From Oscillospiraceae bacterium (lineage in GTDB: Bacteria; Bacillota; Clostridia; Oscillospirales; Oscillospiraceae): a stretch of 13,757 bases of DNA. The translations under genes were made by a program, and so were the position numbers. This document shows positions 10,364 through 13,757 of this stretch, piece by piece. How positions within the stretch are numbered: position 1 is the stretch's first letter; the number at the start of each line of letters is the position of its first letter. The stretch is taken from NCBI GenBank assembly GCA_029065305.1, contig JAIEIQ010000081.1, positions 1 to 13,757 on the forward strand, written 5' to 3'. The notes under the pieces were generated by a model. The model was not told the origin of the DNA and made no database searches. It saw only the letters and a list, made by a program, of their open reading frames with translations.

Positions 10364-10731
10364 GGGGGTGTACCGGTTTCGACGGGGATGAGGAAGCGGG
10401 ATCAGCGGGCGGCGGCGCCTGGCCGCCTTAAAAACGGGCAACTTTTATAAATTAAAGAACAACGATAATCTTGTTCTTGCTGCCTGATTAACGGCAGCCG
10501 TCCGACCTAGGAGGACCGCGGCTTAGGAAGGGCGTCGTTTCGCGGTGAACGTGCGCATAGAAAGAGTTGACTGTGCCATGTATGATGACTCTCACCTGAC
10601 CGGCAGGCGTGGCGGCTTGCCTGCCGGAAGGGGAACGGAGGGGTAACGCCCCTCAAAATAACCGCCTGCGCCCGGAGAAAATCCCGTGGAATTGTTTTCG
10701 GACAGGGGTTCGACTCCCCTCACCTCCACCA
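10364..10731 (+). ncRNA. ssrA: Transfer-messenger RNA (tmRNA)
   Basis: About 368 nt. The 5' end GGGGGTGTACCGGTTTCGAC and the 3' end (T arm GGGGTTCGACTCCCC, then CACCTCC-A-CCA) are hallmark tmRNA ends. The acceptor stem pairs GGGGGTG (10364-10370) with CACCTCC (10721-10727) and has a G-U third pair, the alanine identity signal of AlaRS. CCA is encoded (10729-10731). The tag reading frame ends AAC AAC GAT AAT CTT GTT CTT GCT GCC TGA (10458-10487), giving a peptide ending NNDNLVLAA, the typical protease signal. I place the resume codon at AAG 10455 or slightly upstream. tmRNA with SmpB frees stalled ribosomes and tags the nascent protein. Confidence 0.97.
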
Positions 10732-10739
10732 AAACCGCA

Positions 10740-10775
10740 AACCACGCAATCTCAACGGTTGCGTGGTTTCTCTTG
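10740..10775 (+). terminator. Intrinsic terminator of ssrA
   Basis: A perfect 10-bp stem, AACCACGCAA (10740-10749) with TTGCGTGGTT (10759-10768), has a 9-nt loop and is followed by TCTCTTGTGTTT. It starts nine bases after the tmRNA CCA end. Confidence 0.8.
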
Positions 10776-10865
10776 TGTTTCCAATGGTTTAGCGGGAGCC
10801 TGATTGTAAACGAGGTTTTAATTCAACAATGAAAATCTTTATTGAATATTGAGAATTTAAACAAA

Positions 10866-10889
10866 ATTTACACACGGATTTGCACACGG
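10866..10889. repeat. Tandem 12-bp repeat at the left edge of the small-gene set
   Basis: ATTTACACACGG (10866-10877) is followed directly by ATTTGCACACGG (10878-10889), 11 of 12 identical. It lies in an AT-rich gap between ssrA and the small-gene set and resembles, in inverted orientation, the repeats at 13612-13631. Nothing else of note appears between 10776 and 10925. Confidence 0.6.
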
Positions 10890-10925
10890 GAGCGAGCCAC
10901 TTTCAAGTTATCAAGGAAATAAAGT

Positions 10926-10954
10926 GGGGTTGTGTCCAGCTTGGACACAACCCC
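10926..10954. terminator. Intrinsic terminator at the end of the small-gene set
   Basis: A perfect 13-bp stem, GGGGTTGTGTCCA (10926-10938) with TGGACACAACCCC (10942-10954), has a 3-nt loop. It starts five bases beyond the stop of the last minus-strand gene. The plus side has ATTTTTC and the minus side ACTTTATTTCC, so it probably works in both directions. Confidence 0.82.
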
Positions 10955-10959
10955 ATTTT

Positions 10960-11487
10960 TCACTTTTTGACAATGCAGTGGTAATACCGCTCCAGCTTAT
11001 CAGGCTGGGCGTCCTTGTCGTCCAGAAACGCCTTGGACATATACACATAGAAGTCCATACTGTTTGCACCAGCCTTCTCCGCCGCCTTGCAGTAGTCGGA
11101 GTACATCATGTTCATGGCGACATAGAACTTGAGGGGATCGCAGTCAATATTGCGCTGCTTCCTGGCCTCCTCCGTCTTCTCCATAGTCCAGTGGGGGCCG
11201 GTCGTGCCGTCCTCATTCTTCATGCGGCTGGTCCACTCCATGGCAGTCTCCCGGGTGAATTCGTGGCCGCTGCCGCTGTAAGGATACGGGCCGCTCTGTG
11301 CATGACGTTCCTGTCCGCTGTGCTCCTCTTCCTGCTCCGCGCTTCCCTTACAGAGCATCCGCAGCGTCTTGTACGCCTCCCGGTACCGGCCCAGACGCGC
11401 CGCAGACTCAGGCGTCAATTTCTGACTGCCAATCCGCTCCATTTCCTCCCATAGAATTTCCTTGTTCTTTTCAATCTGGCTTCTCAC
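10960..11487 (-). CDS. 175-aa protein of unknown function, phage/gut-Clostridia type
   Basis: 175 residues, soluble, no signal or membrane segment. It has a helical N-terminal part (about 1-50, LTPESAARLGRYREAYKTL) and a charged linker. The C-terminal domain (about 75-175) has FTRETAMEWTSRMKNEDG, GPHWTMEKTE, FYVAMNMMYSDY and FLDDKDAQPDKLERYY. I recall this pattern from hypothetical proteins of gut Firmicutes and their phages, possibly a DUF7841-type family, but I cannot confirm the name. The start is GTG 11487, overlapping the previous stop by 4 bp (GTGA), with GGAGG nine bases upstream; no earlier ATG is available. It is the last gene before the terminator at 10926-10954. The conserved aromatic and His residues suggest a binding surface, but the function is unknown. 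Confidence 0.85.
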   Translation of the reverse strand: MRSQIEKNKEILWEEMERIGSQKLTPESAARLGRYREAYKTLRMLCKGSAEQEEEHSGQERHAQSGPYPYSGSGHEFTRETAMEWTSRMKNEDGTTGPHWTMEKTEEARKQRNIDCDPLKFYVAMNMMYSDYCKAAEKAGANSMDFYVYMSKAFLDDKDAQPDKLERYYHCIVKK

Positions 11488-11681
11488 TCACTTACGCCTC
11501 CAATTTCCGATTTGATAGCGTCCAGCCGGGAAATAATCTCCCGCTGCCGCCGGTCGTAGATGGTCTGGGTCTTCTCCTGGCGGACGTTGGAATAGACATT
11601 CCAAAGCCCCATGCAGAAGTTAGCGAGGATTACCAGAATCCCCAGCGGCTCCGGCAGATTGTTCTGCGGATTTCTTTGCAT
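11484..11681 (-). CDS. 65-aa membrane protein with C-terminal coiled coil
   Basis: 65 residues: a short polar start (MQRNPQNNLPEP), one hydrophobic segment (about 12-32, LGILVILANFCMGLWNVYSNV) and a charged helical tail (about 33-60, QREIISRLDAIKSEIGG). This layout recalls small phage membrane proteins such as holin-associated ones, without clear family similarity. ATG 11681 lies inside the preceding 59-aa gene, giving a 62-bp out-of-frame overlap. AAGGTGG lies about six bases upstream as a possible ribosome binding site. The stop overlaps the next GTG. There is no other start before the membrane segment, so the overlap is probably genuine. Confidence 0.72.
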   Translation of the reverse strand: MQRNPQNNLPEPLGILVILANFCMGLWNVYSNVRQEKTQTIYDRRQREIISRLDAIKSEIGGVSE

Positions 11682-11799
11682 GCTCCACCACCTTCTTCGC
11701 CTGCGACAGCGCGGCGTCTCCCAGCTTGTTTCCCAGCTCCCGGCCCTGGGCGGTAAAAGCTACCGCGCCCAGGGCGAAGCCCAGCAGCACGCCGCCCAT
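11620..11799 (-). CDS. 59-aa small membrane-associated peptide
   Basis: 59 residues starting MGGVLLGFALGAVAFTAQGR, one Gly/Ala-rich hydrophobic segment (2-17), then an amphipathic, lysine-containing helix (LGNKLGDAALSQAKKVVEHA). Its ATG shares one base with the stop of the preceding 137-aa gene (TGATG), and GGAG lies eight bases upstream, so it should be translated by coupling. Its last 62 bp overlap the 65-aa gene in another frame. It is below common ORF-length cut-offs and easy to miss. The hydrophobic-plus-amphipathic layout recalls small YtxH-like or phage membrane peptides; I cannot assign a function. Confidence 0.65.
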   Translation of the reverse strand: MGGVLLGFALGAVAFTAQGRELGNKLGDAALSQAKKVVEHAKKSAEQSAGAAGDSGNPR

Positions 11800-12212
11800 C
11801 AGATGCGCTCCACGACAACAGCCACGTTGGAGACGGTGGCCGCAGCGCCGGACAGCACCAGGGTCAGGGCGGAATCATCGCCGCAGCAGAATTCCCGCAC
11901 CAGGGCCGCAATGGACAGCGTGACGGGGTTCCCGGCGGTGGAGACAGCGGCGGAGGCGGTCGCGCCGGGGACGGCCACGCCGTTGCGGAACAGGCTGACG
12001 GTGACGGTACCGGCGGCAGTGGGCGCGGCAGTGATGGACGCTTTGACGTCGTAATATCCGGCGTCGTTGCAGCCGTTGATGGTGATGCTGTTTCCGTTGA
12101 GGTTCAAATCACAGCCGTAGCGCCGGATGATGGACCCCAGGGCCAGCGTGCCGCCCACAGGAACGGCCTGGGCGGTGGTGTTGGCAGTAAAAATCGCAGA
12201 TTTGCAGCTCAT
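11799..12212 (-). CDS. TNF/BclA C-terminus-like beta-sandwich protein
   Basis: 137 residues, Ala/Thr/Val-rich, with alternating beta-strand pattern: TANTTAQAVPVGGTLALGSI, GYYDVKASITAAPTAAG, TVTVSLFRNGVAVPGATA and ALTLVLSGAAATVSNVAVVV. This matches the style of trimeric C1q/TNF-like heads at the ends of BclA-type collagen-like proteins, but no collagen repeat and no signal peptide are present. Cysteines at 3, 34, 48 and 109-110 could form disulfides. Similar stand-alone proteins are familiar from gut Firmicutes and phages. ATG 12212 has AAAGGAG eight bases upstream. An intrinsic terminator lies between it and the preceding gene, so its level may differ from theirs. A role as surface or virion decoration protein is a guess. 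Confidence 0.82.
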   Translation of the reverse strand: MSCKSAIFTANTTAQAVPVGGTLALGSIIRRYGCDLNLNGNSITINGCNDAGYYDVKASITAAPTAAGTVTVSLFRNGVAVPGATASAAVSTAGNPVTLSIAALVREFCCGDDSALTLVLSGAAATVSNVAVVVERI

Positions 12213-12243
12213 AGAAATTTCTCCTTTCAGGCTTGTGTATGAT

Positions 12244-12269
12244 AAAAGGGCGGGGCACCGGCCCCGCCC
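12244..12269 (-). terminator. Intrinsic terminator inside the small-gene set
   Basis: On the minus strand GGGCGGGGC (12269-12261) pairs with GCCCCGCCC (12256-12248) around a CGGT loop and is followed by TTTTATC. A perfect 9-bp GC stem with a T-run is a strong terminator. It separates the 188-aa gene from the 137-aa gene, either ending the first unit or acting as a partial stop. A further small GGCC/GGCC dyad lies near 12276-12288. I see no clear promoter between here and 12212. Confidence 0.8.
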
Positions 12270-12294
12270 GTATCCCGGCCAGCAGGGCCTAAAC

Positions 12295-12861
12295 TCAGAT
12301 GCTGCGGTTCCCGCCGCAGGTGCCGCAGGGATTGCACGGATTCATATTGAACCCGCTGGGAATGGTCTGCCCGGAGCAGGTGGTGGCCACGCCGTACAGA
12401 TTGGGCTTGGTCAGCATGTTGCACTCAATGCCGTCCAGCCTGCGGTTGAAGGCGCAGCAGCAGTCGTTGAGCTGCTGAGACAGGCCGGAGACCAGCTCCT
12501 TGGTGTAGAAGTTGTTCTTGAGGCTCATGTTCTCCATCTTCAGGTCGAAGATCTTCTCGGACTGCTGAGCCTCATAGATGCGGCTGGCCTGCCCCATGAC
12601 AGCGTCCCGGCTGTCCCGGATGGCAAGGCGGGTCGTCTCGCCCTGCTGCTCCGTCAGATACTGGGTGCGGGCGCTGTCGATGATCTCCCGCTTCTCCACC
12701 TCGCAGTTGGACACACGGTTACAGCCGCCCTCGGGGACGCAGCCCCCGCGGCTGCCCCAGCCGAAGCCATTGCCAAAGCCGCCGCCCAGAATGGCCCAGA
12801 TCACCAGGATCACGAACAGCACGCCGATCCAGCTCATTCCGCTCTTGGAATCCTCAGACAT
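12295..12861 (-). CDS. 188-aa membrane-anchored Cys-rich protein of unknown function
   Basis: 188 residues: a short polar start, one membrane segment (about 10-28, SWIGVLFVILVIWAILGGG), a Gly/aromatic stretch (GFGNGFGWGSRGG), a long predicted helix (about 54-130, with EVEKREIIDSARTQYL and SEKIFDLKMENMSLKNN), and a Cys-rich end. Eleven cysteines: 41, 47, 53, 134-136, 147, 162, 176, 179 and 182, including a CCC triplet and C-x2-C-x2-C near the C terminus (NPCNPCGTCGG). Metal binding or disulfide cross-linking is possible. ATG 12861 has AAAAAAGGAG upstream. I recall similar hypothetical proteins from gut Clostridia but know no function. The membrane anchor is unusual for a phage structural protein. 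The terminator at 12244-12269 follows. Confidence 0.82.
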   Translation of the reverse strand: MSEDSKSGMSWIGVLFVILVIWAILGGGFGNGFGWGSRGGCVPEGGCNRVSNCEVEKREIIDSARTQYLTEQQGETTRLAIRDSRDAVMGQASRIYEAQQSEKIFDLKMENMSLKNNFYTKELVSGLSQQLNDCCCAFNRRLDGIECNMLTKPNLYGVATTCSGQTIPSGFNMNPCNPCGTCGGNRSI

Positions 12862-12898
12862 TTTGTTTCACTCCTTTTTTAATATATATTCCAACGGC

Positions 12899-13240
12899 CT
12901 ATTTCAGCCGGGGGAATCTGGTTGTGCCCTTCCGGGCGCTCTTAGGGGCCTGGAAGGGCGGTTGTCCGCCGCCCAGTATCCTTTCAGCGTCGGCCTTCAG
13001 GGCCTCGGGAGTGGTGCCCAGAAGGCCGCAGACGGCCCTTCCCTGCATCGTGCTCCCATACCTGCGGTAGATCTCATTGACAGCCTGAGGCGTAATGCCC
13101 AGCTCCCGGGCTGTGGCGCTGACGCCGTCAAGACTGTCCGCCGTCCCGCTGATCGCCTCCTGTGCTTTCCGCACTGCCCCGTTTAGATTTGCGCTGGGAA
13201 ACATCCGCCCCACCGCCGCAAGCACATTGTCCAGGTTCAC
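12899..13240 (-). CDS. 113-aa protein of unknown function
   Basis: 113 residues, soluble. A helical N-terminal part (NVLAAVGRMFPSANLNGAV) is followed by a segment resembling a small helix-turn-helix (ARELGITPQAVNEIYRRYG, about 46-64) and by LLGTTPEALKADAERILGG; the tail is basic (SARKGTTRFPRLK). The helix-turn-helix reading is tentative; it could equally be a packing helix pair. The start is GTG 13240 with AAGGAG ten bases upstream. The first 113 bp overlap the end of the preceding 136-aa gene in another frame. There is no obvious family match. Confidence 0.75.
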   Translation of the reverse strand: MNLDNVLAAVGRMFPSANLNGAVRKAQEAISGTADSLDGVSATARELGITPQAVNEIYRRYGSTMQGRAVCGLLGTTPEALKADAERILGGGQPPFQAPKSARKGTTRFPRLK

Positions 13241-13538
13241 GGTTTTTCAACTCCTTCAGTTCATTTGAAAGTCCGGCGATGATGCCGGACATCTCCAGCA
13301 TGGATTTCTGCATCTCCGCCATCAATTCCTCTTGGGACTTGGGCGGGACGATGACGCCCAGCTCCACCAGCTTGTTGTAGTACTCCTCCGCCGTCTGCTC
13401 CAGCTCGCTGTAGGCGGACAGGGTCTTCCCCACCAGCTGCCGGTTCCCCGCGTAGTCGGTCTGATAGATGTCCGTCCCGTCCACCATGCACGGGAACATG
13501 TTGGACGCGGAGAATCCGGAAAATGCGAATTGATCCAT
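13128..13538 (-). CDS. 136-aa coiled-coil protein, first gene of the small-gene set
   Basis: 136 residues. The N-terminal part is aromatic and polar (MDQFAFSGFSASNMFPCMVD, then IYQTDYAGNRQLVGKTLSAY). A helical/coiled-coil middle follows (about 46-100, LEQTAEEYYNKLVELGVIVP and ELMAEMQKSMLEMSG), then a Gly/Ser/charged tail (about 100-136). The tail is encoded in the stretch shared with the 113-aa gene and looks low in constraint. ATG 13538 has AAAGGAG eight bases upstream. Similar proteins occur, to my recollection, among hypothetical proteins of gut Clostridia next to the other members of this set. There is no signal peptide or membrane segment. Function unknown. Confidence 0.78.
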   Translation of the reverse strand: MDQFAFSGFSASNMFPCMVDGTDIYQTDYAGNRQLVGKTLSAYSELEQTAEEYYNKLVELGVIVPPKSQEELMAEMQKSMLEMSGIIAGLSNELKELKNREPGQCACGGGADVSQRKSKRGSAESTGGDQRDGGQS

Positions 13539-13590
13539 AGCCGCTGCTCCTTTCGGGTTTGGCTTTATTTTACATCAACCTCAATTTCCT

Positions 13591-13631
13591 TGTGCGGCGT
13601 TTGTGTGAAGATATGTGCAATTTATGTGCAA
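13591..13631. repeat. Phased TGTG(C) repeats upstream of the small-gene set
   Basis: TGTGC or TGTGT begins at 13591, 13602, 13614 and 13625, steps of 11, 12 and 11 bp, close to one helical turn. The last two are a longer direct repeat, TATGTGCAA (13612-13620 and 13623-13631). They sit in the AT-rich leader region 53-93 bp before the first gene, where the promoter should be. I found no convincing -35/-10 pair (TAAAAT near 13570 lacks a -35). It may be an operator or recombinase site. Confidence 0.5.
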
Positions 13632-13664
13632 AATAAAAGAGGGGCGGCATTCTGCCGCCCCTCT
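13631..13664 (-). terminator. Intrinsic terminator (inner of a tandem pair)
   Basis: On the minus strand GAGGGGCGGCA pairs with TGCCGCCCCTC around GAA (stem 13639-13663, 11 bp, 12 with the next A-T pair), followed by TTTTATTTT. It insulates the small-gene set from transcription entering from the right edge. Confidence 0.8.
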
Positions 13665-13674
13665 CAGCCTGTCG

Positions 13675-13710
13675 AAAAAAGGCCTGTCTGTCTTCATAAC
13701 CAGACAGGCC
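13675..13710 (-). terminator. Intrinsic terminator (outer of a tandem pair)
   Basis: On the minus strand GGCCTGTCTG (13710-13701) pairs with CAGACAGGCC (13690-13681) over a 10-nt loop, followed by TTTTTT (13680-13675). It implies a minus-strand gene ending just beyond the right edge. The last 47 bases of the window hold no recognisable feature. Confidence 0.75.
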
Positions 13711-13757
13711 GCAAAGTTAATGAGGGATAAAATGTAGGAAGTGGCAGAGGAGGAGGG

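Follow-up and report, generated by a model that had tools for sequence, protein, structure and literature searches.

Integration of prophages at ssrA, the gene for tmRNA, is well known, and it is beside this gene that the seven small genes described here lie in an Oscillospiraceae bacterium (GenBank assembly GCA_029065305.1). The window, i.e. the whole stretch analysed, is the entire contig C358 (JAIEIQ010000081.1, 13,757 bases) of a 70% complete assembly comprising 377 contigs and 1.88 Mb. As in ssrA-integrated prophages, the junction of the set falls at the 3′ end of ssrA, a variable site in the genus, although the contig differs from them in excluding the integrase end. Other described systems resemble parts of the set. 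One of its proteins is predicted to adopt the jelly-roll of BclA/C1q/TNF-type heads over its full domain but, unlike BclA, it is a bare head of 137 amino acids without a collagen-like stem, is encoded by a separate small gene of a phage module and scores below the Pfam cut-off. Another is a member of the DUF7841 gut-phage proteins, with relatives in the crAss-like phages cr10_1 and cr52_1 and in others, whereas none of the other six genes was detected in the two crAss-like records examined (L011 and L116). The set is also like morons, in that it consists of extra genes near an attachment site with terminators on both sides (the upstream one in 13 of 17 loci), but it comprises seven genes in a conserved order and is also present in phages in which no integrase was recognised. 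We found no description of it in open-licence papers.

The data presented below indicate that the seven genes are very probably the ssrA-proximal end of a tailed-phage prophage and, with high confidence, that they constitute a module closing the phage late region at its 3′ side, with the tail/lysis genes on one flank and the attachment site on the other. We would class it as an accessory late module of temperate phages and of phages related to them.

Gene order and phage context of the module

On the minus strand from 13538 to 10960 (2,579 bases) the window carries seven co-directional open reading frames (ORFs) of 136, 113, 188, 137, 59, 65 and 175 amino acids, termed g1 to g7, most of which are preceded by clear ribosome-binding sites; this confirms the set of small genes that an earlier note on this DNA had described. 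Relatives were identified by hidden Markov model (HMM) searches over fetched loci, some of which are one record from two collections (e.g. L013, L018 and L033). The g3 gene was found in 32 loci, which form 22 clusters at 95% identity; all seven genes are present in six clusters and g1 to g5 in twelve, g6 was found in 10 loci with cassette genes, and the order was identical wherever genes of the set were found, so that the tabulation of gene order proposed in the earlier note came out in favour of a conserved arrangement. Relatives of g3, g4 and g7 in the protein database number 283, 967 and 582 respectively, 120 of which were listed in each case. Ratios of non-synonymous to synonymous substitution (dN/dS) against five relatives were 0.03–0.46 for g1–g4 and g7 (one g7 comparison being saturated), 0.17–0.23 for g6 (four comparisons) and 0.42–0.97 for g5, values that are biased by the overlaps of g1 with g2 and of g5 with g6. 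Because the whole order recurs elsewhere, and given these dN/dS values, the set is more than a chance grouping. The HMM search did not find g6 in L029, where g5 and g6 seem to have been fused by a deletion (L029:3584-3763), leaving a 59-residue ORF that begins like g5 and ends like g6.

The relatives sit in phage records and in prophages that also encode terminase, capsid, tail or lysis proteins or an integrase, which bears out the phage origin suspected earlier. In L003 a tape measure gene, tail-fibre proteins and a sigma-like gene are followed by the seven genes and a converging serine integrase. In L044, whose record also includes a terminase, genes for a tape measure, a tail protein, an endolysin and a holin lead up to the module, and a tRNA-like 3′ end and a tyrosine integrase come after it. 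In Phascolarctobacterium faecium DSM 14760 the prophage (L036 and L046) carries a tyrosine integrase, terminase, head–tail adaptor, major head protein, tail protein, endolysin and sigma-like gene together with a module of g1, g2, g3, a different gene in the fourth slot and g7, and a tRNA-Arg gene lies 149 bases beyond. A tail collar protein is encoded upstream of the module in L052, from the window's own genus. Upstream of g1, L029 carries a gene resembling sigma-70 region 4, which at 20.1 bits fails to reach the Pfam cut-off; next come a small gene that looks membrane-like, an endolysin-type M15 peptidase and more small genes. The module is co-directional with the tail genes in the loci examined, and endolysin genes precede it in six. 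Against the 13 of 17 loci mentioned above that have a terminator-like hairpin upstream of g1, random windows, 12 from each locus, had one at a rate of 0.13; being mostly coding, such windows make a lenient control. Among 23 cases (the window plus the 22 clusters), a tRNA or tmRNA end, a tRNA-like motif or an integrase adjoins the module with at most one small gene between in 12, i.e. the window, L002, L003, L004, L005, L008 (motif alone), L029, L033, L034, L036, L038 and L044; five more (L014, L030, L031, L032 and L045) run out of sequence.

The fourth slot is variable in content. It holds g4 in twelve clusters and another small protein family in L007, L009, L010, L035 and L036; this family, which lies between g3 and g7 (L036:10589-10987, L035:10705-11013 and L122:7977-8396), also occurs in L117 and L120–L122. 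Small proteins are also encoded behind g5, in the position of g6/g7, in L034 (11196-11507) and L038 (3852-4175); they match rubrerythrin with 22.1 and 20.2 bits, under the cut-off of 22.8.

The ssrA junction and the contig end

Rfam places ssrA on the plus strand at 10364..10731 (RF00023, 134.1 bits), confirming the tmRNA gene that the earlier note had seen beside the set; ARAGORN missed it in spite of this score of 134 bits. A 26-mer of its 3′ end is present in 10 of 25 genomes of the genus, own included. In all nine others that hold the ssrA 3′ end, homology to the window takes in ssrA and the genes upstream of it and stops at 10731-10734, the ssrA end, after which the DNA differs in each (two of the nine contigs terminate within 100 bases of this point). 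As homology stops there in 9/9 sister loci, the end of ssrA serves as a variable site of insertion in the genus, and what lies downstream of it in the window is inserted DNA. The cassette has its closest relative in the near-identical L029 (a contig of a metagenome-assembled Oscillospiraceae genome), which has 90% identity to the window over the 244 bases of 10709-10952 and 95% identity over 13539-13664. It carries the last 23 nucleotides of ssrA, from 10709, and then non-ssrA sequence, as would an attP or a neighbouring element; the arm beyond the 23-nucleotide core was not found in the 25 genus genomes. These findings support the earlier view of ssrA as the integration target, with the attachment site probably at its 3′ end (core approx. 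10709-10731).

Between ssrA and the module lies an AT-rich spacer (10732..10924), which its similarity to L029 and its low GC suggest to be phage DNA beside the attachment site. It is followed by a terminator-like hairpin 3′ of g7 (10925..10955, minus strand, but terminator-like on the plus strand too). A second such hairpin stands upstream of g1 (13637..13665, minus strand), and its counterpart in L029 (1734-1760) is directly 3′ of the sigma-70 region-4-like gene. The outer gaps have a GC content of 0.36–0.40 as against 0.60, so that the flanking terminators and AT-rich gaps noted previously hold as described.

The earlier note had remarked on the lack of integrase, terminase and capsid genes. 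A dispersed repeat, of which 13660..13757 (plus strand, outside the module) is the start, ends the contig, and it is for this reason that the contig breaks 219 bases past the start of g1; the lack of these genes from the window is therefore uninformative. The repeat has nine matches in its own genome, seven in G159 and one each in G156, G164 and G168; at least seven of the nine own-genome copies are at or within approx. 80 bases of a contig end. A strong hairpin directly abuts the repeat in 11 of the 12 flanks examined (the exception being L103), as if it were a candidate insertion element that aims at intrinsic terminators.

The individual proteins

The first gene, g1 (13128..13538, minus strand, like all seven), encodes a protein that looks helical or coiled-coil-like by eye. 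The start of g2 (12899..13240) lies within g1 in the +1 frame, with an AAGGAG ribosome-binding site and an overlap of 113 nucleotides. This arrangement is kept across 15 aligned loci, with overlaps of 62–122 nucleotides and an AAGGAG-type site embedded in g1 before g2 in 15/15 (AGGGAG in L034), and g1 and g2 of the remote L035 have no overlap. Matches of the 113-residue g2 protein to helix–turn–helix families were weak (E 0.03–0.2) and, as all fell below the cut-off, the DNA-binding label it had been given is not shown.

The g3 protein (12295..12861) has 188 residues, of which 11 are cysteines, including a CCC cluster, and a strongly hydrophobic stretch at residues 9–25 that probably serves as an N-terminal anchor, in line with the membrane-anchored, 11-cysteine protein proposed from the sequence. 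It matches phrog_16490, of unknown function in PHROGs, with an E-value of 1.6e-6. Its remote relatives vary in length, and several keep the hydrophobic stretch and a CCC cluster, the latter being absent from L036 and L007. A terminator-like hairpin (12248..12269, minus strand) was detected by a hairpin scan in the gap between g3 and g4.

The product of g4 (11799..12212) matches Pfam BclA_C with 23.3 bits, below the cut-off of 38 bits. Its structure, predicted as a single chain with a pLDDT (predicted local distance difference test) score of 92.8, most resembles BclA-type heads and then C1q and TNF family members, and the predicted jelly-roll spans the full domain (aligned range 2–137); no collagen-like Gly-X-Y stem is visible in the 137 residues, which are head throughout. 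The TNF/BclA-like head of the earlier note thus gains the backing of a predicted fold. The 59-residue g5 (11620..11799) has a hydrophobic N-terminus and overlaps both g4 (ATGA) and g6, and g6 (11484..11681), of 65 residues, has a single hydrophobic stretch. Neither matched a lysis family in PHROGs, Pfam or NCBIfam, in which proteins as short as these are easily missed.

The last gene, g7 (10960..11487), encodes a 175-residue DUF7841 protein (PF25223, 109.4 bits against a curated cut-off of 25.2). With the window protein as query, relatives were found in 26 of 50,697 phage records, so the phage-type label given to it was apt; with the P. faecium g7 as query, 49 phage records were found, including crAss-like ones and, as weak matches, phages isolated on Bacteroides fragilis and Parabacteroides distasonis. 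Its AF2 model (mean pLDDT 86.3) is all-helical, and comparison with the PDB gave nothing convincing. We note that the DUF7841-type gene of the crAss-like phage cr52_1 (L116:6073-6672) is labelled ‘RNA polymerase sigma factor/ubiquitin-like protein’, as it is in others, a label that looks doubtful.

Possible roles of the module

A number of observations weigh against reading the seven genes as the late-region edge of an ssrA prophage. No second copy of the ssrA end was found in the own assembly (26-mer, up to two mismatches; an assembly 70% complete), and neither an integrase nor a capsid gene was seen there; the tape measure of a relative also had no match in that genome. No sigma-70-like promoter was found upstream of g1 on its strand, and none of g1–g7 matched a structural or lysis family in PHROGs, Pfam or NCBIfam. 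In six of the 23 cases (L007, L009, L010, L035, L037 and the L039–L041 phage) no attachment site or integrase was seen beside the module, the integrase scan covering L007, L035 and L041 among them. The L041 record does have a tyrosine integrase elsewhere; the L035 module abuts replication genes that converge on it (DnaB-like helicase confirmed), and PF00589 had no match in the 83-kb L035 contig or the 67-kb L007 record. In L007 the endolysin gene follows the module rather than preceding it. Finally, the head is not indispensable, because in L041 and L044 neither g4 nor its slot-4 alternative was found. As a separate observation, a serine recombinase-like gene was seen by eye a few kilobases on in L037.

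In the earlier note the set was taken for a domesticated, phage-derived cellular system. The genes are indeed intact and under purifying selection, and no other phage gene is present in the window, but the contig end accounts for the latter, relatives elsewhere are in phage context, and g4 is found in only four of 25 genus genomes and g3 in three of 150 family genomes (own included in each, many assemblies being incomplete), which does not amount to fixation in the host lineage; we regard domestication as very unlikely. The note had also asked whether homologues occur only inside prophages with assigned structural roles: their location in prophages and phages was borne out, whereas the family matches assign no structural role. 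The module could nevertheless be a virion component, in which g4 or its alternative decorates the particle or serves as its adhesion knob, with g1–g3 aiding assembly, a possibility that we entertain tentatively. Its co-direction with the tail genes is consistent with this, as is the interpretation of phage C1q-like domains as receptor-binding (PMC7468147). So too is the fact that L007, L035 and the circular complete phage genomes of bajarodcaudo virus 5 and Dulem virus 36, the last two having no integrase among their listed features, contain the module or its g3/slot-4 part; since no integrase was recognised in these phages, this favours a function in the lytic cycle over one confined to lysogeny. 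A hydrophobic anchor such as that of g3, however, is unusual for tailed-phage virion proteins, a terminator sets the module apart from the tail and lysis genes, structural family matches are lacking, and the slot-4 alternative was the only module gene detected in Dulem virus 36. In that genome (L117:6968-7351) the gene follows a receptor-binding protein, and the holin and autolysin lie apart, between tail and portal genes.

An operon for lysogenic conversion, moron-like, expressed from the silent prophage and altering the host surface, e.g. for phage exclusion or adhesion, is a possibility we hold just as loosely. The position at a prophage edge, the terminators on both sides and the combination of a putative membrane protein with a binding head would suit it, but the phages without a recognised integrase do not, nor does the gene order, which is kept over larger divergence than expected of morons, and a promoter of its own was not recognised. 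That the small membrane proteins control the timing of lysis or help it along, as a late envelope/lysis-control module, seems unlikely: the module follows endolysin genes in six loci and DUF7841 adjoins a ‘LysB-like’ gene in cr52_1, but L044 and L036 have separate holin or spanin-like genes and no lysis-family match was obtained for any of the seven.

For the accessory late module that we favour, a surface complex of the putative head and the membrane proteins is possible. In the mechanism proposed, of which the membrane topology, the trimer, the complex, the surface display and the timing are conjectural, the N-terminus of g3 would anchor it in the cell membrane with its cysteine-rich part, disulphide- or metal-bound, exposed; g1 and g2, from their overlapping frames, would be its partners, g5 and g6 small membrane helpers, and g7 a cytoplasmic helical partner. 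The g4 protein would be a trimeric binding head of the C1q/BclA type, shown by the complex at the infected cell's surface or on phage particles. A more general and rather doubtful proposal is that unrelated gut phages share a modular surface-display device, with the putatively membrane-anchored, cysteine-rich g3 as base, g1/g2 as partners and an exchangeable slot-4 head (here a putative bare C1q/BclA-type trimer, elsewhere another domain), which on infected cells or particles might bind mucus, host glycans or other bacteria.

On our findings the set is better seen as the edge of a prophage than as a ‘domesticated system’, and its poorly described small genes make up a module that recurs at the end of the late region in phages whose hosts are gut Clostridia, Bacilli and Negativicutes. 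Should slot 4 hold a swappable binding head, the module would offer a concrete handle on how gut phages and lysogens interact with surfaces.

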